IMG/VR virus record: IMGVR_UViG_3300034418_011036 | Coordinates: 1-21,219 of that record | From: a virus | Strand: one strand, 5' to 3' | Length of the DNA: 21,219 nucleotides | In this document: positions 883-20,377 of the stretch, piece after piece | Position numbering within the stretch: the first letter of the stretch is position 1 | Layout of the letters: each line of letters opens with the position of its first letter | Translations under genes and position numbers: made by a program | Notes under the pieces: generated by a model | What the model was told of the DNA's origin: nothing | The model's input: the letters and a program-made list of their open reading frames with translations, nothing else | The model's database searches: none

Positions 883-1344
883 ATGGCAGATGGTTTTACA
901 TATGGTGTTAATTTTCCCTTTAGAGATAGTCTTCAGGGTAAGTACTTATCTCTATCACAAACAAGTGTTGAGGAGATAAGAACTGATTTACTGCATTTGA
1001 TTTTAACAAGAAAAGGAAGTAGATATTATTTACCCGATTTTGGTACAAGAATATATGAGTTCATTTTTGAACCAATGGACGGACCAACATTTGAGGCGAT
1101 TAAATCAGATATTAGAGACGCGGTTGAAAAATACATACCAAACTTAACTATAAAAGACATTAGTTTAACACCATATTTGGATGACCTAGAAGCTCAAGGT
1201 GAATTAAATTACGAAAAGTTAGGAGGTACTGTTTATAAAATTCCTGGAAAAGGAACAGAAGAGTATACCGCTAAGTTAAGAATAGATTATTCAGTTGATG
1301 ATAAGGCATTTGAGTCAAAAGATTTTATAATTATCAATATTTAA
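883..1344 (+). CDS. 25: Baseplate wedge protein, gp25/GPW family
   Basis: A 153-residue protein of the gp25-like/GPW family, part of the baseplate wedge next to the sheath in contractile phages and also found in type VI secretion and related injection systems. The signature runs from about residue 29 to 65: a helix (EEIRTDLLHLILTRKGSR), then YYLPDFGTRIYEFIFEP. This is the family pattern in which a conserved loop after the LTRKGSR helix leads to FG...FEP. The segment DAVEKYIPNLTIKDISLTP then gives the usual helix-strand ending. About 30 residues rich in E, G and Y (around 100-130) look like an insertion. The ATG at 883 is preceded by no Shine-Dalgarno sequence. An ATG at 876 is in another frame. 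The gp6-like gene follows after 6 bases, so the two are probably co-transcribed, as is common for wedge genes. Confidence 0.9.
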   Translation: MADGFTYGVNFPFRDSLQGKYLSLSQTSVEEIRTDLLHLILTRKGSRYYLPDFGTRIYEFIFEPMDGPTFEAIKSDIRDAVEKYIPNLTIKDISLTPYLDDLEAQGELNYEKLGGTVYKIPGKGTEEYTAKLRIDYSVDDKAFESKDFIIINI

Positions 1345-1350
1345 TAGTAT

Positions 1351-3189
1351 ATGGCAAATAGAAAAATATCCTATACGGAAAGAGATTTTGAAGGACTAAG
1401 ACAAGACCTCATAAATTATACGAGACAATATTATCCTGAACTCATTGACAACTTCAATGACGCATCTGTATTTTCGGTATTTTTAGATTTGAACGCTGCG
1501 ATTGGTGATAACCTTCACTACCATATGGATAGAAGTATACAGGAAACTGTGTTACAATATGCACAACAACGTTCTTCTGTTTATAATATTGCTAGAACTT
1601 ACGGATTAAAAATTCCTGGATATAGACCATCTATATCTATGGTTGATTTTTCCATAACTGTACCCGCTTACGGTGATAAGGAAGATGCTCGATATCTTGG
1701 TATTCTAAGAGGGGGTTCCCAAGTTGTTGGTGGAGGTCAAACTTTTGAAAATCCATATGACATAGATTTTGCCTCACCTTATGATGCTAATGGATTCCCT
1801 AACAGAATTAAAATTCCAAATTTTGATTCTAATAATAGACTTATTAATTACACAATCACAAAAAGAGAAACGGTTGTTAACGGTATAACAAAAGTATTTA
1901 AACAAATTATCAACCCAAATGATGTTGTTCCTTTTTATGAAATATTCTTACCTGAAAGAAATGTTTTAGGTATTACATCTGTTATTCAAAAAGATGGTAC
2001 AAACTATCAAGCAACACCAACATATGGTGAATTTATAAGTTCACCAAATAAGTGGTATGAAGTTGATGCATTGGCCGAGTCAAAAGTTTTTATTGAAGAC
2101 CCAACAAAACCTGCAGATTCTACGGGAATTAAAGTGGGTAAATGGTTAGAGACAGAAAATAGATTTATAACAGAATATACTCCAGAAGGATTTTTAAAGA
2201 TGACATTTGGAGGGGCAACAACAACGGCAAATGAACAACTAATACAATTTGCACAAACTGGAGTTCCAATGAGAATACAAGATTATCAAAATAATATTGG
2301 ATTAGGTCTTACAGTAAAACCAAACACTACTTTGTTTATTCAGTATAGAATTGGTGGAGGTACATCATCTAATATTGGTGTAAATGCTATTAATCAATTA
2401 GGTACTGTGAACTTTTCTGTTAATGGTCCATCAGACAATATTAACCAAACAGTGATTAATTCATTAAATGTGAATAATGTGACGGCAGCCATTGGTGGGG
2501 CTAATCAACCAACAACAGAAGAAGTTAGAAACATGGTTAGTTTTAACTTTGCATCACAAAAAAGAGCGGTAACCATCAACGATTACCAATCTTTAATTGA
2601 TATTATGCCTGGTAAATTTGGAGCACCGGCTAAGGTTAGTATAACTGAAGAGGATAATAAAGTACTGGTTAAAATGTTATCATTCAATGCGGATGGACAA
2701 TTGACTGAAATTGTTTCTAATACATTAAAAACTAACATTGCTACATATCTCTCTAACTATAGAATGATTAATGATTATGTACAAATTAGTAATGCTCAAG
2801 TTATAGATTTAGCATTTGATTTATCTGTGGTATTTGATTCAGTACAAAATCAGGGACAAGTTATAACTGAAATTGTTAATCAAATATCTCAATATATGAG
2901 CCCAACAACAAGAGGATTAGGTCAAAATTTGAATGTGTCTGATATTAGACGAATCATTCAAGATGTGTCTGGTGTTATTGCACTTTCAGATATTAAAATA
3001 TACAACAAGACCGGTGGTGAGTATTCTTCATCACAAACCTCACAACGATATTCTGACGCTGCAACAAAACAAATTGAAATTATTGACGATACTATTTTTG
3101 CTGAACCTAGTCAGATTTATCAAGTAAGATTCCCAAACAAAGACATCATGATAAGTGCTAAGTCACTTAAAGGTGTTGCATTTTCTTAA
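1351..3189 (+). CDS. 6: Baseplate wedge protein, T4 gp6 / baseplate J-like family
   Basis: A 612-residue protein resembling T4 gp6 (660 residues) and its relatives in marine T4-like phages. In T4, gp6 dimers form the continuous ring that joins the six wedges around the hub. The N-terminal segment is the most telling: SYTERDFEGLRQDLINYTRQ followed by FNDASVFSVFLDLNAAIGDN, DRSIQETVLQYAQQRSSVYN and LKIPGYRPS. This is the gp6/J-like opening, with a family-typical Y-P-(E)...D...D.NA..GD pattern. The C-terminal half contains RAVTINDYQSLIDIMPGKFG and a ferredoxin-like alternation (VLVKMLSFNADGQL), also typical of the J-like core. It lies 6 bases after the gp25-like gene without a Shine-Dalgarno sequence. 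The stop is followed by a 73-base gap with repeats and a candidate promoter, so the first tail transcription unit may end here. Confidence 0.88.
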   Translation: MANRKISYTERDFEGLRQDLINYTRQYYPELIDNFNDASVFSVFLDLNAAIGDNLHYHMDRSIQETVLQYAQQRSSVYNIARTYGLKIPGYRPSISMVDFSITVPAYGDKEDARYLGILRGGSQVVGGGQTFENPYDIDFASPYDANGFPNRIKIPNFDSNNRLINYTITKRETVVNGITKVFKQIINPNDVVPFYEIFLPERNVLGITSVIQKDGTNYQATPTYGEFISSPNKWYEVDALAESKVFIEDPTKPADSTGIKVGKWLETENRFITEYTPEGFLKMTFGGATTTANEQLIQFAQTGVPMRIQDYQNNIGLGLTVKPNTTLFIQYRIGGGTSSNIGVNAINQLGTVNFSVNGPSDNINQTVINSLNVNNVTAAIGGANQPTTEEVRNMVSFNFASQKRAVTINDYQSLIDIMPGKFGAPAKVSITEEDNKVLVKMLSFNADGQLTEIVSNTLKTNIATYLSNYRMINDYVQISNAQVIDLAFDLSVVFDSVQNQGQVITEIVNQISQYMSPTTRGLGQNLNVSDIRRIIQDVSGVIALSDIKIYNKTGGEYSSSQTSQRYSDAATKQIEIIDDTIFAEPSQIYQVRFPNKDIMISAKSLKGVAFS

Positions 3190-11482: not shown

Positions 11483-12391
11483 ATGGCGTTAGGAACATAC
11501 GGAACAACAAGACCAGCAGACATGTCACCTGAAGATGTGGAGATTATTCTTAATTATACACCTTCAAGAGACGTAACAGAGAATTTTATTTTAAAGAAAT
11601 TAGATGCCGCGAGTATTTTAAAACCATATTTTCACAATTCAGATACAGGTGGAAATGCGGGTGTAGAAATATTGGGTGGTTTGTACAATTTAAAACTACC
11701 ATCATCTGAATTTAATCAACTAGGAATTTATACATTATACCTTAGACCCGCAGAGATTAGAACATCAATCACCGATTGTGGTGTTTTATCTTCTTTGCCG
11801 AATGTTAAAGGTATTATAATAGATTTAAATAATGTGCCACAGAGTTATCGAAATAGATTTGTAAATCAGGGTCTTGTTGGATTTAGAATAGAATATTTAA
11901 ATTCAGATGGTACAAAAGTTCCTAACTTTTATAGAATTATTACATCTTCATTCTTTTGTGAGCCTGTTGTTACTAATTTAGTTAACAGTTCACAAAAATC
12001 TATTAGATATAGATATGTGGATAGTGGTAGTGATTTATTATTTTGTACAGTTTCACCAACGAGTGCTCCTACAAACAAACCATCGGCTACACCATACATA
12101 GGTCAACCAAATCAAAACATAATTGTAACAAACACATTTTTTAATCCAATAAGTATTGATATTCAAGTTGCAAACTATGACTTAGATACTCTTGGAATTG
12201 CTCTTTACGGTAACCAAACTAAGAGTATTGAAGATGGTATCTACACAATCTATGATACTCAGAACAATATCTACAAACAATACAACTTATTTGAGGTTAG
12301 AGATGACTTTAATAACTTGTTGTTTGAAGTTCGTCAAGATAGAGGTGATAATATTGATTTTAGTAAAAACTTTACAAACGTAATTAGTTAA
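11483..12391 (+). CDS. Phage structural protein of unknown function (302 residues)
   Basis: I recognise no family. The N-terminus (MALGTYGTTRPADMSPEDVE, then an IILNYTPSRD segment) looks like a helical or extended arm. It is followed by a probable beta domain containing YNLKLPSSEFNQLGIYTLYLRPAEI and GLVGFRIEYLNSDGTKVPNFYRI split across residues about 70-160, then a short S/P/T-rich linker (about 190-210). The C-terminal section has regular strands (GIYTIYDTQNNIYKQYNLFE and EVRDDFNNLLFEVRQDRGDN). No membrane segment or signal peptide is seen. The gene is 1 base after the previous stop, and its own stop overlaps the next start (TAATG at 12389-12393). The setting suggests a baseplate or tail component working with the 358- and 987-residue products. 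Confidence 0.6.
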   Translation: MALGTYGTTRPADMSPEDVEIILNYTPSRDVTENFILKKLDAASILKPYFHNSDTGGNAGVEILGGLYNLKLPSSEFNQLGIYTLYLRPAEIRTSITDCGVLSSLPNVKGIIIDLNNVPQSYRNRFVNQGLVGFRIEYLNSDGTKVPNFYRIITSSFFCEPVVTNLVNSSQKSIRYRYVDSGSDLLFCTVSPTSAPTNKPSATPYIGQPNQNIIVTNTFFNPISIDIQVANYDLDTLGIALYGNQTKSIEDGIYTIYDTQNNIYKQYNLFEVRDDFNNLLFEVRQDRGDNIDFSKNFTNVIS

Positions 12392-15354
12392 TGGCAAGTA
12401 ATAAGTACAGATATCCTCCCGCACCTGGAAACGGTAGTGGAACTTTTTCCGACAACATTGTAGGTTTACAAACTGTTGATGGGGGAGGACTGACTCAAGG
12501 AAACTTTGAGTTCAGTACTTCTGTGTTTGAAAAAGTTAATAGAAACTTTAATACTGGTACGTTTTCACAACCAATAAGTCTTAATGATTTAAATGTTGGT
12601 AATTTATTAGAATCAAGAATACTTGCGGCAAAAAATTATAGAGTATACCCAAATTATGATATTAGTCAGGTTACTAATTTTACTTTATATGGTTCTTTAA
12701 GAAAAAGGTTTGATGCATCCGTAACTAAAATTATTAATTATTTTCCTGCTGCAATTCAAATAAATCAAACATCTAATGACTATACAACTGCAAATACTGC
12801 AAATAATATAAGTTATGATATAACTGAAAATTTAACAACATTTGATGTTGATGTTACTCGTATATATAATCCATTTGACATTGATTATTCCGAAAATTCT
12901 ACACGTAATATTTCAGTCAGACCACTTGCGGTTAGTCCATTGAGAAATCTTACTGTTGAGTATGGTAGGTATTCAGTATATGTAAACAATTTAGATACTG
13001 AGTATTTGGTGTATGATTTCACACCGTCACCAAAATTATCTGCAGGGACTATGACTTTTGTGGTTATAGGTAACCCATTTTCGGGTAGTAGTTCATCAAC
13101 TAACACTATTGTTATTAAACCAAATAATCTTGAAACCGAAAAAGCATTTCAAGACCCGTTCGATGAGGTTGAAGATTTTCTATTAAACAGATTAATAAAC
13201 CCAAAGTATACTGCCGACTTTAAAGTGCCGGTTGCAGATGACAATGGAAGATATCAAATACTTACTAAATCAGTAACATGGAATACCGATGGATTATGGA
13301 ATTTGGATATTAGAACAAATAAGTTTGATAATTACTTAACACAACTTAATTCTATTGCAGAAAATCTTGATGAATTTAAAACTAATTTAATTAGTCGTTT
13401 TTTAACTACCGCGGCATTCCATGAGTTTGATACTGAAGACCAAAAAGTAGAAAAAGTATTACAACTCTATGGTAGAAGTTTTGACGAAACAAAAAAGTTT
13501 ATTGATGCGTTAGCATATATGACTTCAGTGAACTATACGCCTAATAATGATATACCTTCACAACTTTTATTTAATTTGGCTCAAACATTAGGTTGGAATC
13601 CAAATATATCACCAATAACTAATGATGGTTTCTTAGATTCAATTTTTGGTACATCAAATAAAACAAAATATTCTGGTCAGGATAGAGAAAAAACACCAAA
13701 TGAAATAAATTATCAGTATTATCAAAATCTAATACTTAATTCTGCATATCTATTCAAATCTAAAGGTACTCGAAAATCGGTTGAATGGGTAATGAGAGCT
13801 ATTGGTGCACCGGATGCGTTAGTAGAATTTAATGAAATAATTTATTTGGCTGATGGACCAATAAATGTAAATCAATTTGATACACAATACGCCAATCTTT
13901 CGGGTGGTACATATGCAGATGTAATACCAACACTTGATAGTAATATTACATTTAAAATTAAAGGAACAGTTTACACTGGGTTTACTACGGATTCTTCAGT
14001 TACAAGTATTAGTGTGAATAGAAATACATACCCTATGGATTCTGATGGTTATCCATTAGCACCGACAAATACGTCTACATTCTTTTTTGAACAAGGTTCA
14101 GGTTGGTATGAAAGTACTCCAGAACATAGGTCACAAGAAGTTAATCGAGTTAATGCCACAAAATACACAGGCTCAAATCCAAATAATCAAACTATCTTGG
14201 AGCCATACACTTACGGACAAAAATATTTTGATAGATTTAGGTATTTCCCATATATGACCTTAGGTTATGGTTTAACTAAGACTTTTGATAATAAAAAATC
14301 ATGGGTTGATACCCATTTAGGTCTAAGAAACACATCCAATGGGTTTAATGCGTACTACAGAGTATCAAATGAGAAATTAGTATTAAACGCCAAAAATATT
14401 GATTTGTATTTAAACATGGGACAAGGTCTTGAATATGATGTTTGGGATATGAGTAGGAAATATAATTACCCAATACCTAATTCAGGACTTACTTCACCAT
14501 ATCCTTCACCTGGCGGTATTGATTGGACGGTTATCGACCCAAAACCAAAGGAAAAAACATTCTTTGAATTTGCTCAAACATTCTATAATAACATGATTAA
14601 TGTTAGAAACCGTCAAACTATTAGTGATGGTAAGGGTGGAGGTTATCCAACACTTCAAAAAATCTATTGGGATTATTTAAATTCTGAAGAGGCAATAAAT
14701 GTACCTTCAAATCAATTCACATACCAAAAAATGATTGATTACACTTTAGGTATTGGTGATTATTGGATGAGATTAGTGGAACAAATGTTACCAGCGTCTA
14801 CATTGTGGATGGGGGGACAAAAAATGGAGAACTCTGTGTTCCATAGACAGAAGGTTGTATGGAGAAGACAAAGAGGTTGTGAGATTATTCCTGTTGAGTG
14901 TATCCCATGTACGTTTGAAGGTCAAATATTGGGGTATGATTGTATTGACCAAACTGTTACTTGTGGTGTTTACCCCTGGATTGAACCAACTTCAACATCA
15001 ACTGCGGGTAATTTCCAACAGATGTTAACCGATACTGTCACTCAAGTTACTTCATCTTATACTACATGTAACCAAAATACAATTGTTAGTCAATGGTATG
15101 TTGATTTAAGGTTAGATAACACAATATTAGTTCAAGAAAAGTTTTATACAGGTTATGGGGGTAATGATGTACCATCAAATTCTGATTGGATTACTGCGTT
15201 GGACGAAAAACTTGAATTATTATATCAAGATGGCCTTAACTATTTTATAAATGGTAATAATATTATTATAGCCAATTCATCATGTTATGATGATTTTACA
15301 AATAAACGATTATACTTAAATGTAGGTATAGATTTAACAATTAGTTGTCAATAA
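12391..15354 (+). CDS. Large baseplate protein with gpI-like segment and shared C-terminal domain
   Basis: A 987-residue protein. Its middle (about 325-480) resembles phage tail protein I (P2 gpI-like) regions: helical segments (ENLDEFKTNLISRFL, KVEKVLQLYGRSFDETKKFI, LLFNLAQTLGWNP), then YYQNLILNSAYLFKSKGTRK with K458-G459-T460 and VEWVMRAIGAPDALVEF. The KGT...lg pattern is typical of gpI, which joins the wedge to fibres. The segment after it (about 780-830) contains YWMRLVEQMLPASTLWMGGQ and a basic stretch with WRRQRG. Five cysteines follow within 29 residues (C830, C837, C840, C851, C858). The last 70 residues (918-987) are homologous to the end of the next gene's product. The N-terminal 300 residues are beta-rich and unassigned. 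It overlaps both neighbours as TAATG. I infer a wedge-to-adhesin connector. Confidence 0.7.
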   Translation: MASNKYRYPPAPGNGSGTFSDNIVGLQTVDGGGLTQGNFEFSTSVFEKVNRNFNTGTFSQPISLNDLNVGNLLESRILAAKNYRVYPNYDISQVTNFTLYGSLRKRFDASVTKIINYFPAAIQINQTSNDYTTANTANNISYDITENLTTFDVDVTRIYNPFDIDYSENSTRNISVRPLAVSPLRNLTVEYGRYSVYVNNLDTEYLVYDFTPSPKLSAGTMTFVVIGNPFSGSSSSTNTIVIKPNNLETEKAFQDPFDEVEDFLLNRLINPKYTADFKVPVADDNGRYQILTKSVTWNTDGLWNLDIRTNKFDNYLTQLNSIAENLDEFKTNLISRFLTTAAFHEFDTEDQKVEKVLQLYGRSFDETKKFIDALAYMTSVNYTPNNDIPSQLLFNLAQTLGWNPNISPITNDGFLDSIFGTSNKTKYSGQDREKTPNEINYQYYQNLILNSAYLFKSKGTRKSVEWVMRAIGAPDALVEFNEIIYLADGPINVNQFDTQYANLSGGTYADVIPTLDSNITFKIKGTVYTGFTTDSSVTSISVNRNTYPMDSDGYPLAPTNTSTFFFEQGSGWYESTPEHRSQEVNRVNATKYTGSNPNNQTILEPYTYGQKYFDRFRYFPYMTLGYGLTKTFDNKKSWVDTHLGLRNTSNGFNAYYRVSNEKLVLNAKNIDLYLNMGQGLEYDVWDMSRKYNYPIPNSGLTSPYPSPGGIDWTVIDPKPKEKTFFEFAQTFYNNMINVRNRQTISDGKGGGYPTLQKIYWDYLNSEEAINVPSNQFTYQKMIDYTLGIGDYWMRLVEQMLPASTLWMGGQKMENSVFHRQKVVWRRQRGCEIIPVECIPCTFEGQILGYDCIDQTVTCGVYPWIEPTSTSTAGNFQQMLTDTVTQVTSSYTTCNQNTIVSQWYVDLRLDNTILVQEKFYTGYGGNDVPSNSDWITALDEKLELLYQDGLNYFINGNNIIIANSSCYDDFTNKRLYLNVGIDLTISCQ

Positions 15355-17678
15355 TGGCTTGTTTTTCAGGAGTAACTACGGGAAGTACATGGACCTACAC
15401 AGATTGTTGTGGGGTAGAACAGAATGGATACAATGCTGGTAGTTTAATTTGTGTTGATACATCATATTCTTATGATGGTGTTGAAGTTTATTCTGAGCCT
15501 TGTGTTGGTGATTGTACGGCATTAGATGCTACTTTTTCTATAACTGGTGTTTGTGAGAACATTGGTAATGGTGCGGTTAGTATACAACCGTCAGGTGGTG
15601 TTGCCCCATACTCAATATGGAATACTGTGCCTGACAACCCATCACTTTCTGGTGCTGCTAGCAATGGTCCATTTATATTTACAGGATTAAGTGGTGGGAC
15701 ATATGTATGGCAAATAAATGATAGTACTTCTCCTGATAACCAAGAAATTTTTGTCAACATTATTGTTAGTGACTGTTTTTGTGGTGAAATAAATGATGTT
15801 GCCGGTACAACCTGTGGTAACAGTAATGGGAGTTTTTGGGTAAGTGGCTCATCAACATCCGCACCTTATAATATCGATATATATAGTGGTGATACCTTCT
15901 ATAGGGGTGATACTGCTTCATTCTTCCCATATCAGTTCACTAATATGCCGAGTGGTATCTACCATGCATTTATTACAGATTCAGGTGGTGCTACCGCTCA
16001 AACTGAGAGTGTTTTAGTTTCAGGTAGTTCTGAGCTTGATTATGGTTTTTGGGTTGTAAACAGTTCTTATTGTGCACAAAATCAAGGTAAATTATCAGTA
16101 ACAGGATTAACAGGAGTTAGTCCATATACGTATTTGTGGAGCAATGGAGAAACAGGTAACACAATTACAGGTTTGACAGTTGGTACATACACTGTAACTG
16201 TAACTGATTCGGCAGGATGTACAACATCCAAAGATAAAGAGATTGTTGTTACTCCTCAATTAGGGTTAGGGTCATTAAGTGCAATAACGCCAAGTTGTTT
16301 CACATCAGATGGGGAGTTAATTTTTACCATTACAGGTGGAACATTACCTTTTTATTATTATGGTAGTACAGGTCAAGTATCTTATAGTTCATCAAGACAA
16401 TTTAGGTTAACAGGATTGACATCGGGTAGTTATACTATTTCAGTTACCGATGCTGATTTATGTAAAGATTTATTTGGTGGGTATATAACACCTCCTGGTG
16501 GATTTGACGTGGTAGACTTAACAGTTGTTAATTCAACGTGTAGCTCAACAAACGGTAGTATTTCTATTACCATAGCGGGGGTGAGTTCAAATAATTATGT
16601 TTATAGTATATCGGGACAAACAACAGGTGTGGTACAAACTCAAACTACACCATCTCAATCGGTACTTTTTGGTAGTTTATCAAATGACACTTATTTGGTT
16701 TCAATATCGGGAACAGGGTCTAATTGTTTATATGAAACAACAAAAACAATAAGTTCAAGTGATAAGTTTAATGTTAGTTATGCAATCACAGGGTCTACAT
16801 GTGGTGATGTCAATGGTTCAGTTGAGGTAAATGTTGGTGTGGGGTATACAAGTCCACTTGATTATGCATTGGTGAATAACGGTACTTTATTTAGACAAGA
16901 TATCATAGATACAACGGCTTCGGGGTATACTTTCTACAATGTTGATGCAGGTTCATATACTTTAACGGTTACAGATGGAGATAATTGTTCTGTTATCAAA
17001 ACATTTAATGTTACCTCATCGGGTTCTATGAATTATTCATTATTTGGTACTGATTGTGTTAATGGTAATGATGGTTCTGCTGAGGTTGTTGTGACGAGTG
17101 GTAATCCACCATTTACATATTTGTGGAGTAATGGTGAAACAACCCCCACAATATCTAATTTGTCGGGGGATACGTACAGTGTAACTGTTACGGATAGTGA
17201 CGGATGTGCAAAATTAAAATATGTCACTATAATTTGTAATTCTTCAACAGTAACGGCATATAGTGCTGTTAGTGTATGTCAAAATTTATTTACTACTGTT
17301 TCTAATACAAAGAGAAGTATGTCAAAAATGTTGAATGAAGGATTTTTGGATATTACATCTGGAAATACCAATTGTGCTCTTGTAACGGCTGAGTTTTTTG
17401 CGGATGTATCAATAACAGGGTCTACAGGTTGGGTAAGTGGTTCTACAGTTCCATTTTATACTGCAACGACATTAAACTCTGTACCTTCTGACAGTCAATG
17501 GATAACCACTGTTGAGGGGATTTTAAATACTATTGACGAAGTTGGTAGTGTTACTATAGATTTATTAAATAATACAATTATTATAAAATCAAATTGTGAT
17601 GGTGATGATGACCCACTTAAGGGGGCAACCATTAGTATACAATTACAAATAATCTACGATATCAACTGCGTTTCATAA
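15354..17678 (+). CDS. Tail adhesin-like protein with seven SprB-type repeats
   Basis: From ATG 15354 the product has 774 residues. I choose this start because TAATG overlaps the previous stop exactly, as at three other junctions; a TTG at 15345 would add three residues. The N-terminus is cysteine-rich (MACFSG, TYTDCCG, EPCVGDC). Then come seven repeats of about 70-90 residues, each opening with a C...NG(S/K/A) motif and closing with G(T/S)Y.V.V.D..GC, for example YTYLWSNGETGNTITGLTVG leading to TYTVTVTDSAGC. These match the SprB repeat of Bacteroidota adhesins (SprB carries gliding motility in Flavobacterium). The last 74 residues are homologous to the end of the 987-residue protein. No signal peptide is seen, as expected for a virion protein. 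A role in host attachment is inferred. The 75-residue gene follows by TAATG. Confidence 0.8.
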   Translation: MACFSGVTTGSTWTYTDCCGVEQNGYNAGSLICVDTSYSYDGVEVYSEPCVGDCTALDATFSITGVCENIGNGAVSIQPSGGVAPYSIWNTVPDNPSLSGAASNGPFIFTGLSGGTYVWQINDSTSPDNQEIFVNIIVSDCFCGEINDVAGTTCGNSNGSFWVSGSSTSAPYNIDIYSGDTFYRGDTASFFPYQFTNMPSGIYHAFITDSGGATAQTESVLVSGSSELDYGFWVVNSSYCAQNQGKLSVTGLTGVSPYTYLWSNGETGNTITGLTVGTYTVTVTDSAGCTTSKDKEIVVTPQLGLGSLSAITPSCFTSDGELIFTITGGTLPFYYYGSTGQVSYSSSRQFRLTGLTSGSYTISVTDADLCKDLFGGYITPPGGFDVVDLTVVNSTCSSTNGSISITIAGVSSNNYVYSISGQTTGVVQTQTTPSQSVLFGSLSNDTYLVSISGTGSNCLYETTKTISSSDKFNVSYAITGSTCGDVNGSVEVNVGVGYTSPLDYALVNNGTLFRQDIIDTTASGYTFYNVDAGSYTLTVTDGDNCSVIKTFNVTSSGSMNYSLFGTDCVNGNDGSAEVVVTSGNPPFTYLWSNGETTPTISNLSGDTYSVTVTDSDGCAKLKYVTIICNSSTVTAYSAVSVCQNLFTTVSNTKRSMSKMLNEGFLDITSGNTNCALVTAEFFADVSITGSTGWVSGSTVPFYTATTLNSVPSDSQWITTVEGILNTIDEVGSVTIDLLNNTIIIKSNCDGDDDPLKGATISIQLQIIYDINCVS
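15520..17240 (+). repeat. Seven degenerate SprB-like protein repeats (about 210-265 bases each)
   Basis: The repeats begin near 15530, 15780, 16035, 16265, 16500, 16765 and 17035. Repeats 3 and 7 are closest to each other (both contain YLWSNGET and a TYxVTVTDSxGC ending). The others keep the early cysteine and the terminal D-x2-C but differ elsewhere. They are too diverged at DNA level to be recent duplications. Boundaries are approximate because they were read by eye. Confidence 0.75.
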
Positions 17679-17905
17679 TGTCATCAAAGATAACAATAAC
17701 ATCTGTTTCAGGGGCTACAACACCATATACATTATATGTATGTGATAGTAACGGTAATAATTGTTCCGTACTAACAACAGACGCTTCACCGACAGGAAAT
17801 TTCACTTTATCTTCATTTTTTGATGGTGCACCCGCAGTAATGTTAAAAATTATTGATGGTAACAACTGCGAGTATTTTGAAATTCTTCCTTGTCAATCTG
17901 CCTAA
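17678..17905 (+). CDS. Small single-module beta protein (75 residues), tail-associated
   Basis: A 75-residue protein starting at the TAATG overlap with the SprB-repeat gene. It reads as one compact beta module: ITITSVSGATTPYTLYVCDS, then an NNC, then a middle strand NFTLSSFF, then VMLKIIDGNNCEYFEILPC. The PYTLY and IIDGNNC elements resemble the start and end of an SprB-like or related Ig-like module, and of residues 1-70 of the next gene's product (PFDIYTG ... [10 protein letters not shown]). Four cysteines could pair if the particle is exposed to oxidising conditions. There is no signal peptide or membrane helix. It may cap or decorate the adhesin, or be a detached repeat unit. The function is unknown. 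It ends the second transcription block, before a hairpin and candidate promoter. Confidence 0.65.
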   Translation: MSSKITITSVSGATTPYTLYVCDSNGNNCSVLTTDASPTGNFTLSSFFDGAPAVMLKIIDGNNCEYFEILPCQSA

Positions 17906-17974: not shown

Positions 17975-20377
17975 ATGGCGCAATTTATTATAAGACTCAC
18001 ATTAGATTCTAATGCGGTAGGTCCGTTTGATATATATACAGGTTCAACTTCCACAACTCCGATTAAAACTAATCAGACAAGAGACCAATTAATCGCAGGT
18101 GTTTTGATTAATTTACCTGGTGCTACTTTCGGTACCAATTATCCTATCTACATTATTAATACACAAGACGGTTGTGATGACTTAGTGGTTAGTCACAATA
18201 TAGTTTCTTACACAACATATGCCGTTACTATTAGTGTAACTGATGGTAGTACTAGGGCGACGTATACCGCAGTTGCGGATTCTGCAGTATCTGAAAATAT
18301 AACTGTAAATTTTACAAATACTTTAGGTTTAACAACAGGTGATAATCTTGTATTTACACCATCTATTCCTATTTTAAGTGGTTCTACAACCGGAACGTTA
18401 GTTTTAACTGCAACAACAGCCTTTAATTTGTTAAATGGTGATTGTACAAATACTGCCTTTACTGTTAGTGGAGGTACAGGTGTTTTATCTAGTATACAAC
18501 ATACATATGATTGTAATATTCAATCAGTAACACCAACACCAACATCAACTCCAAATGTTACTCCAACAAATACACCAACACCTAGTGGTACGGCATCGGT
18601 GACTCCAACACCTACAGCTACAATTATTAGTATAACACCTACACCAACGGGTAGTAGTACAATTGTGACTCCAACACCAACTAATACTCCAACAGGAACT
18701 GCTAACGTAACTGCGACGCCAACTAATACTCCGACTAATACTCCAACAGGAACTGCTAATGTAACTACAACACCTACTAATACTCCAACTAACACTCCAA
18801 CAGGAACGGCTAACGTAACTGCAACTCCAACTAATACTCCTACACAGACACCTACAGGAACGGCTAACGTAACTGCAACTCCTTCAGTTACACCAACTAA
18901 TACGCCTACAGGAACGGCTAACGTAACTGTAACGCCAACTAATACACCTACACAAACTCCAACAGGTACTGCTAACGTAACTACAACTCCAACCAATACG
19001 CCAACTAATACGCCTACAGGAACGGCTAACGTAACTGCAACTCCAACCAATACTCCAACTAATACGCCTACACAGACTCCGACAGGTACGGCTAATGTAA
19101 CTGTAACACCGACTAATACTCCTACCCAAACTCCGACAGGTACGGCTAATGTAACTGCAACTCCAACCAATACGCCAACTAATACGCCTACACAGACTCC
19201 GACAGGTACGGCTAATGTAACTGTAACACCGACTAATACTCCTACACAGACACCAACAGGAACGGCTAATGTAACTGCAACTCCAACTAATACTCCGACA
19301 GGAACGGCTAACGTAACTGCAACTCCAACCAATACGCCAACACAGACTCCGACAGGTACGGCTAATGTAACTGTAACACCGACTAATACTCCTACACAAA
19401 CTCCGACAGGTACGGCTAACGTAACTGCTACACCAACTAATACTCCGACACAGACGCCAACAGGAACTGCTAACGTAACTGCAACTCCTTCAGTTACGCC
19501 AACCAATACTCCTACACAAACTCCGACAGGTACTGCTAACGTAACTGCTACGCCAACTAATACACCTACACAGACACCAACAGGTACTGCTAATGTAACT
19601 GCAACTCCAACAGTAACACCAACTAATACACCTACTAACACACCTACTAATACTCCGACAGGGACTGCTAACGTAACTGCTACGCCAACACAGACTCCAA
19701 CACAGACTCCAACAGGAACTGCTAACGTAACTGCAACTCCAACAGTAACACCTACCAATACTCCTACGAGTACCGCAAATCCTACACCAACACCATCAGG
19801 AACACCTAATTCTACACCGACACCAACAGCAACTAGTGCGGGTGCATTGGCTTACGTATTTTTATCAACAGATGATGATTTTCAGTTTAATACAGGTGAT
19901 TTAGATGACTATATGTTCAACAATGGTGCGACATCATGGTTAGGGTTCAATGGTGGAGCTGCAGGATTTAATAATAGTGAAGCTCAGATTTGGATGGACT
20001 GGCCTGGTTTTACAGGTGGGACCGCAAATGGTTCTCAAGTATTAACAACAACTGTAGACCAAGCAACATATTTATTTAATTCTGTAACATTACCTGCGGG
20101 TGAGGTAAATGTTGGTGATACAGTATATCCTGCAATTGTTATTCCTGTTAGTTCTATGAATAGTGATACCTATCAAATAGATGAAATTGGGTATGATTAT
20201 GATAATGGTGGATTTGACCCAACATCGGTAAACAGTACCGTCAGTGGAGTATTAGTAACATATTCAGGTAGTTATTGGCCGAGTGGTGATTATAGAGTGT
20301 ACTATAGTGCTTCTTTACCTTCAAATACTAATAGTTCGTTTGATTATATATGGAAGGGTAATACTAAAACTCCTTAA
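17975..20377 (+). CDS. Fibre-like protein with long Thr/Pro-rich stalk and C-terminal globular domain
   Basis: An 800-residue protein in three parts. Residues 1-185: beta modules, the first ([27 protein letters not shown]) resembling the preceding 75-residue protein, the second around [20 protein letters not shown]. Residues 186-620: a stalk in which almost every second residue is Thr, built of [12 protein letters not shown] and TANV units, with 19 copies of GTANVT. Residues 621-800: a globular domain with [21 protein letters not shown]-rich loops ([13 protein letters not shown]) and a C-terminal beta region ending [10 protein letters not shown]. The stalk would form an extended rod holding the C-terminal domain away from the particle, so that domain is the likely binding end. 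No signal peptide or anchor is seen. The role as a fibre or receptor-binding protein is inferred from architecture and context. The stop is followed by an 11-A run. Confidence 0.75.
18530..19834 (+). repeat. Tandem coding repeat array of the Thr/Pro stalk
   Basis: The core period is 12 bases (four residues, T-P-T-x), grouped into units mostly of 42, 54 or 66 bases that each end in GTANVT. There are 19 such units between about 18665 and 19735, flanked by less regular Thr/Pro sequence. Third codon positions vary freely among A, T, C and G. A few longer exact copies exist: 19055-19125 equals 19175-19245 (71 bases, offset 120), and 55 bases from 19071 recur at 19191 and 19341. Confidence 0.95.

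Follow-up and report, generated by a model that had tools for sequence, protein, structure and literature searches.

A conserved chain of seven SprB-type repeats in the baseplate locus of uncultured large myoviruses: a proposed tail arm with exchangeable ends

The stretch of DNA analysed here (the window) is a virus contig of 21,219 bases. Its plus strand carries a gp25-like baseplate wedge gene at 883..1344 (PF04965, 2.8e-11), a gp6/gpJ-like baseplate wedge gene at 1351..3189 (PF04865, 4.5e-7; PHROG 219, baseplate wedge, 3.4e-22), a gene for a 987-aa protein at 12391..15354 and, directly downstream, the gene on which this work centres (15354..17678), whose 774-aa product starts with ATG and matches the Pfam family SprB (PF13573). 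The wedge matches bear out the preliminary description of the locus as a T4-like baseplate cassette, and the position of the SprB gene downstream of the gp25- and gp6-like genes is conserved in its relatives. Two further ORFs follow on the same strand, one of 75 aa (17678..17905) and one of 800 aa (17975..20377); the latter has a long linker of Thr/Pro-rich repeats followed by a globular C-terminal part, and matches PHROG 15511 (1e-10), whose function is not known in that collection. The ATG of the SprB gene overlaps the stop codon of the 987-aa gene (TAATG at 15352-15356), and its own stop overlaps the ATG of the 75-aa ORF in the same manner (TAATG at 17676-17680), which suggests that translation of the SprB gene is coupled to that of both neighbours. 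Small ORFs of 69-109 aa recur near the position of the 75-aa ORF in most relatives. Right before the baseplate genes, positions 2-796 encode what appears by eye to be the C-terminal part of a ribonucleotide-reductase-like protein.

The whole 774-aa protein scored 49.4 bits against PF13573 (3.4e-13), above the curated cut-off of 28, while no match to this family was found in 14 control genomes. No other Pfam family reached its own cut-off on the protein, the next best being CarboxypepD_reg (24.8 bits vs 32.3); an unrelated family for the repeats was thus ruled out, and with it the prospect that they would score clearly better elsewhere. A PHROGs search with the protein returned nothing significant. 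The repeats span residues 56-630, flanked by two non-SprB parts: a Cys-rich N-terminal segment (residues 1-55, 15354..15518), which has no Pfam match, is modelled with a pLDDT of about 44-53 and is absent from some relatives, whose matches start only at residue 56-61, and an alpha/beta region from about residue 631 to 774. When the repeats were scanned singly, only the last one, R7, a classical SprB repeat (residues 556-630, 17019..17243), exceeded the cut-off, with 42.1 bits. Three gave weak matches under it, namely R1 (residues 56-141, 15519..15776, 21.7 bits), R3 (225-301, 16026..16256, 19.6 bits), which is the most conserved repeat, and R4 (302-383, 16257..16502, 18.1 bits). R2 (142-224, 15777..16025), R5 (384-467, 16503..16754) and R6 (468-555, 16755..17018) had no SprB match alone and are recognisable only via orthologues, although each is modelled as a beta-sandwich; together with R1, they are assigned by positional orthology. 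The repeat-by-repeat search that had been proposed against PF13573 therefore succeeded in part, for R7 and weakly for three others. Even so, the earlier count of seven repeats of the SprB pattern was correct, since the repeats align with each other, seven beta-sandwiches are modelled and the same order is found in the orthologues.

The AlphaFold model is a chain of seven beta-sandwiches from residue 56 to 626, with pLDDT mostly of 75-91; its pTM of 0.35 means that the mutual placing of the domains is not fixed by the model. In a Foldseek search the top four PDB matches were all GhpA of Aureispira (E 2.8e-19 to 8.6e-13, 14-18% identity), with TM-scores of about 0.2 over the whole chain, as expected for flexible multidomain proteins. 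The cysteines are strongly conserved, with 24 of the 25 retained in no fewer than 30 of 31 orthologues; two cysteines were also counted in 1202 of 1607 cellular SprB repeats.

Downstream of the repeats lie a linker and a C-terminal domain (residues 631-774, 17244..17675), modelled from about residue 652 to 774 with the order alpha-beta-beta-alpha-beta-beta-beta. This proposed docking domain shares homology with the C-terminal ~117 residues of the 987-aa protein encoded upstream: blastp gave an E of 0.001, hhalign of the two C-termini a probability of 96 and an E of 5e-9 (0.07-0.76 in five column shuffles), and a profile of the SprB protein C-terminus retrieved the 987-aa protein at 1.6e-9. The order of helices and strands is identical in the two structure models. 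This homology suggests docking; it could also stem from oligomerisation alone. For the 987-aa protein itself, no match below E 0.1 was obtained by fold search, nothing convincing by profile searches, no homologue among 50,697 phage records and no relative in 395 genomes of the phylum Bacteroidota. As the protein has no known homologue and its model is poor (pLDDT 54), its placement in the tail is taken from gene order alone.

A profile-based scan of IMG/VR yielded at least 561 confirmed relatives, and some contigs of this phage group reach 270-292 kb. No homologue of the SprB protein was found among the 50,697 phage records, nor in phages of hosts other than Bacteroidota. The SprB ORF is the one that immediately follows the 987-aa gene in 137 of the 145 loci bearing the 987-aa C-terminus; among the other eight, most have an ORF that is extended far at its N-terminus or truncated by a contig end. 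In an independent sampling via the gp6-like gene, 9 of 12 suitable contigs carried the SprB gene; of the three that did not (L033, L034 and L063), L033 stops about where the gene would start and L034 is a truncated N-extended case. A full array of at least seven repeats was present in 135 ORFs, which represent 81 distinct cores and group into 69 clusters at 95% identity (43 at 70%); R1-R7 stood in the same order in 131 ORFs. One contig, L131, entered the orthologue alignment with the wrong ORF, its SprB core sitting in the next one; the repeat, cysteine and pairwise-identity counts exclude it, whereas the family scans, the structure input and the per-domain conservation figures include it. Relatives (L149:20576-22189, L140:21243-22862) encode another SprB-repeat protein, about 540 aa long, 5-8 kb past the end of the first gene.

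The core of the orthologues is alignable end to end, and their differences in length fall almost wholly outside the 774-aa core, as extensions of 0-1844 aa on its N-terminal side and 0-385 aa on its C-terminal side. Thr/Pro linkers occur in the extensions of 38 of the 81 distinct cores; the extensions also hold VWA domains with a DxSxS motif and, in one member, a FISUMP-type (Fib_succ_major) module. Two long orthologues, L090:12949-19968 (2340 aa) and L095:12940-21771 (2944 aa), have N-terminal VWA domains (1.9e-20) with DxSxS, connected by Thr/Pro linkers. The window protein consists of the core without fused extensions, and a Thr/Pro linker with a similar end module is encoded apart from it in the 800-aa ORF, whose linker repeat is long and nearly regular; in the relative L090, a linker and end module like those of the 800-aa protein are fused to the SprB core. 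The likeness between the linker of the 800-aa protein and the L090 stretch FMDWPGWFDGTA was judged by eye.

The relatives offer a further observation downstream of the SprB gene, where a GlcNAc glycosyltransferase (PF11397, 224-237 bits) was found at a distance of about 1-6 kb in 9 of 10 large contigs tested, as in L098:16607-17845, L115:18986-20230, L116:19165-20397, L124:16875-18068 and L148:20906-22153. It adjoins Thr/Pro-rich and collagen-like proteins, such as a 260-aa protein with collagen triple-helix repeats (PF01391) encoded between the SprB and glycosyltransferase genes at L098:15777-16556; the window ends short of that place. This enzyme may glycosylate the Thr/Pro-rich and collagen-like stalks of the relatives.

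With regard to the age of the array, position-specific profiles gave medians of 109-132 bits on their own position in the training phages, scores that are inflated as the scored sequences also built the profiles; the order R1-to-R7 was recovered outside the training set too. The same profiles gave at most 76 bits on any other phage position or on any of 1,607 cellular repeats. Each repeat being closest to its own position, in a fixed order, the seven-repeat array predates the divergence of the group; and as cellular repeats score at least as high as repeats from other positions of the same proteins, the array does not originate from recent duplication. Both a recent capture of the repeats and their recent duplication within the phages were ruled out by these scores. 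The trees rest on about 80 columns, too few to fix the number or direction of transfers: a quick tree gave p 0.985 for a single phage clade, and in a more careful one R3 and R7 fell among cellular repeats, with a single phage clade not rejected (p-AU 0.19). The idea that the phage took its repeats from its host agrees with the nearest cellular repeats being nearly all of Bacteroidota, and is not supported as a recent event.

Selection on the repeats is purifying. Their dN/dS was 0.05-0.11 in close pairs and 0.15 in one near-identical pair, compared with 0.04-0.07 for the upstream gene, all rough values as dS in those pairs was often near or above 1. The repeats are all similarly conserved (median pairwise identity 41-61%), and the faster or positively selected change expected of a diversifying receptor-binding protein was not detected. 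The impression is of a structural arm that is old and conserved, and not of a receptor binder that was borrowed recently and changes fast; purifying selection is compatible with the binding of a conserved ligand.

The nearest cellular sequences belonged to Bacteroidota in 79 of 80 loci among the matches listed, in agreement with the distribution first ascribed to the family; the sole other title among them was that of a MAG named Rickettsiales (L184), possibly misbinned. Shine-Dalgarno-like starts made up 4% of 565 ORFs of the phage group, a set in which ORFs overlap between contigs, vs 5% in shuffled leaders; the corresponding figures were 8% for a Flavobacterium phage, 8% for Bacteroidota cell contigs, 33% for a Microcystis phage and 83% for Salmonella phage Munch. 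The phage group thus showed the Shine-Dalgarno-free starts looked for in a Bacteroidota phage (4% and 3% vs 5-7% by shuffle). Judged from the sequences, these starts and the nearest cellular loci make a Bacteroidota host likely. The Bacteroidota promoter motif was uninformative as a host sign (23 seen vs 24 expected), and the 395 genomes of the phylum, in which relatives of the 987-aa protein were looked for, gave no direct host link.

A conserved core, variable ends, a C-terminal domain shared with the neighbouring protein and purifying selection fit a tail-docked arm that presents exchangeable modules. We propose, as a moderately probable reading, that the 774-aa protein serves as a conserved structural component of the tail apparatus for adsorption in uncultured large myoviruses, whose host would probably be a member of the Bacteroidota. 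The protein would be part of the virion. The seven Ig-like repeats would make up an extended arm in which most repeats are probably braced by one disulfide each; tail assembly in phages being cytoplasmic, such disulfides would need to form after lysis. The C-terminal domain would dock the arm onto the tail, beside or on the 987-aa protein. The end modules, fused to the arm or supplied by neighbouring genes, vary by phage (Thr/Pro linkers with head domains, VWA, FISUMP-type) and, more than the repeats, would set what is bound. As for the repeat fold, it was most likely acquired from a surface protein of Bacteroidota, earlier than the radiation of the group.

The foremost alternative, in line with the preliminary description, is that the repeats themselves are the main adhesin and bind polysaccharide of the host surface or the environment. 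SprB-type repeats derive from surface adhesins, the gene lies in a tail locus, and the core of the window, being free of fused extensions, leaves no other obvious binder in the 774-aa ORF. However, in long multidomain adhesins such repeats often act as spacers; all seven are under purifying selection and similarly conserved, the variation being found at the ends, and no binding site was identified in them. We regard this alternative as possible but unlikely, and a role of the repeats as the variable receptor binder is not supported.

Ig-like domains are common on phage capsids, and weak profile matches to the phage decoration protein 5lxk and to the neck whisker protein gp24 would agree with a Hoc-like decoration of the virion, adhering weakly to particles, mucus or biofilm, in place of a tail part. 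Nevertheless, the match to 5lxk covers a short stretch (E 3.7e-4 with the profile, 1.3 with the single sequence), and both the gene order inside the baseplate/fibre cluster and the C-terminal homology to a baseplate-locus neighbour make a decoration protein rather improbable. As to a mimicry or engagement of the SprB/gliding (T9SS) machinery of the host, also raised in the preliminary description, its sole support is that the repeat family is shared and that the host is probably a member of the Bacteroidota. Weak, unconvincing matches to a T9SS sorting domain appeared in 2-3 of 32 orthologues and none in the window protein; where a cellular SprB gliding adhesin would have its sorting domain, the window protein has a phage-specific C-terminal domain. 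There is no other link to gliding, and SprB repeats occur in many Bacteroidota proteins, so the family name is no pointer to it; we consider this last reading exceedingly unlikely.

A bolder version of the docked arm can be put forward only tentatively, and we think it doubtful as a whole. A lineage of large Bacteroidota phages would have adopted, long ago, SprB-type repeats complete with their paired cysteines from adhesins that the host secretes, and fixed them as a seven-domain arm braced by oxidation. This arm would dock by means of a domain that arose as a duplicate of part of a baseplate-locus protein, and would present exchangeable modules on Thr/Pro stalks, which the GlcNAc transferase encoded nearby by the phage possibly glycosylates; in this view the phages have their own equivalent of the grappling hook of Aureispira.

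These results connect an uncultured and widespread group of phages with Bacteroidota by way of its adsorption apparatus and highlight a host-type surface repeat that was fixed as a probable building block of the virion, not as a quickly exchanged receptor binder. They also name a candidate docking domain common to two neighbouring tail genes. Should the cysteines of the 774-aa protein be oxidised in the virion, it would be an unusual phage protein that matures chemically outside the cell. A phage protein called 'SprB repeat' is already known from UniProt, as a table name only, and we found no paper on SprB repeats in phages; what is new here is the C-terminal homology with the 987-aa protein, the fixed core with variable ends and GhpA as the best structural match.

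Among known systems, the best viral structural match was that very UniProt/BFVD entry, A0A6J5LD72, a 714-aa protein of an uncultured Caudovirales phage, which is 31% identical to the 774-aa protein over 733 columns (E 5e-57) and probably its orthologue. The baseplate loci of Flavobacterium phage vB_FspM_immuto and Microcystis phage Mel-JY01 encode a homologue of the gp6-like protein (26-27% identity), and their large genes are similarly ordered; over about 20 kb, no counterpart of the SprB core or of its C-terminal domain was detected in either. GhpA, the grappling-hook protein of Aureispira sp. CCB-QB (PDB 9flp, 9fly, 9flw and 9flv), resembles the phage protein in its tandem beta-sandwich domains and as a Bacteroidota surface structure, but it is cellular, has at least 5,009 residues, gave no match by sequence alone and showed none to the C-terminal domain. 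Cellular SprB and SprB-repeat proteins (PF13573) share with the phage the repeat motif and, mostly, two cysteines per repeat; in contrast, the cellular arrays often extend much further (two genomes gave 80-odd matches each, in ORFs of up to ~5,000 aa), and the matches stop short of the phage C-terminal domain. In general kind, the 774-aa protein belongs with the Ig-like tail, fibre and capsid proteins of phages (BIG2, FN3, PKD, BACON), which carry tandem beta-sandwich repeats on virion proteins, and differs from them in its fixed number of seven repeats, its conserved cysteines and a docking-like domain held in common with the product of a neighbouring gene.
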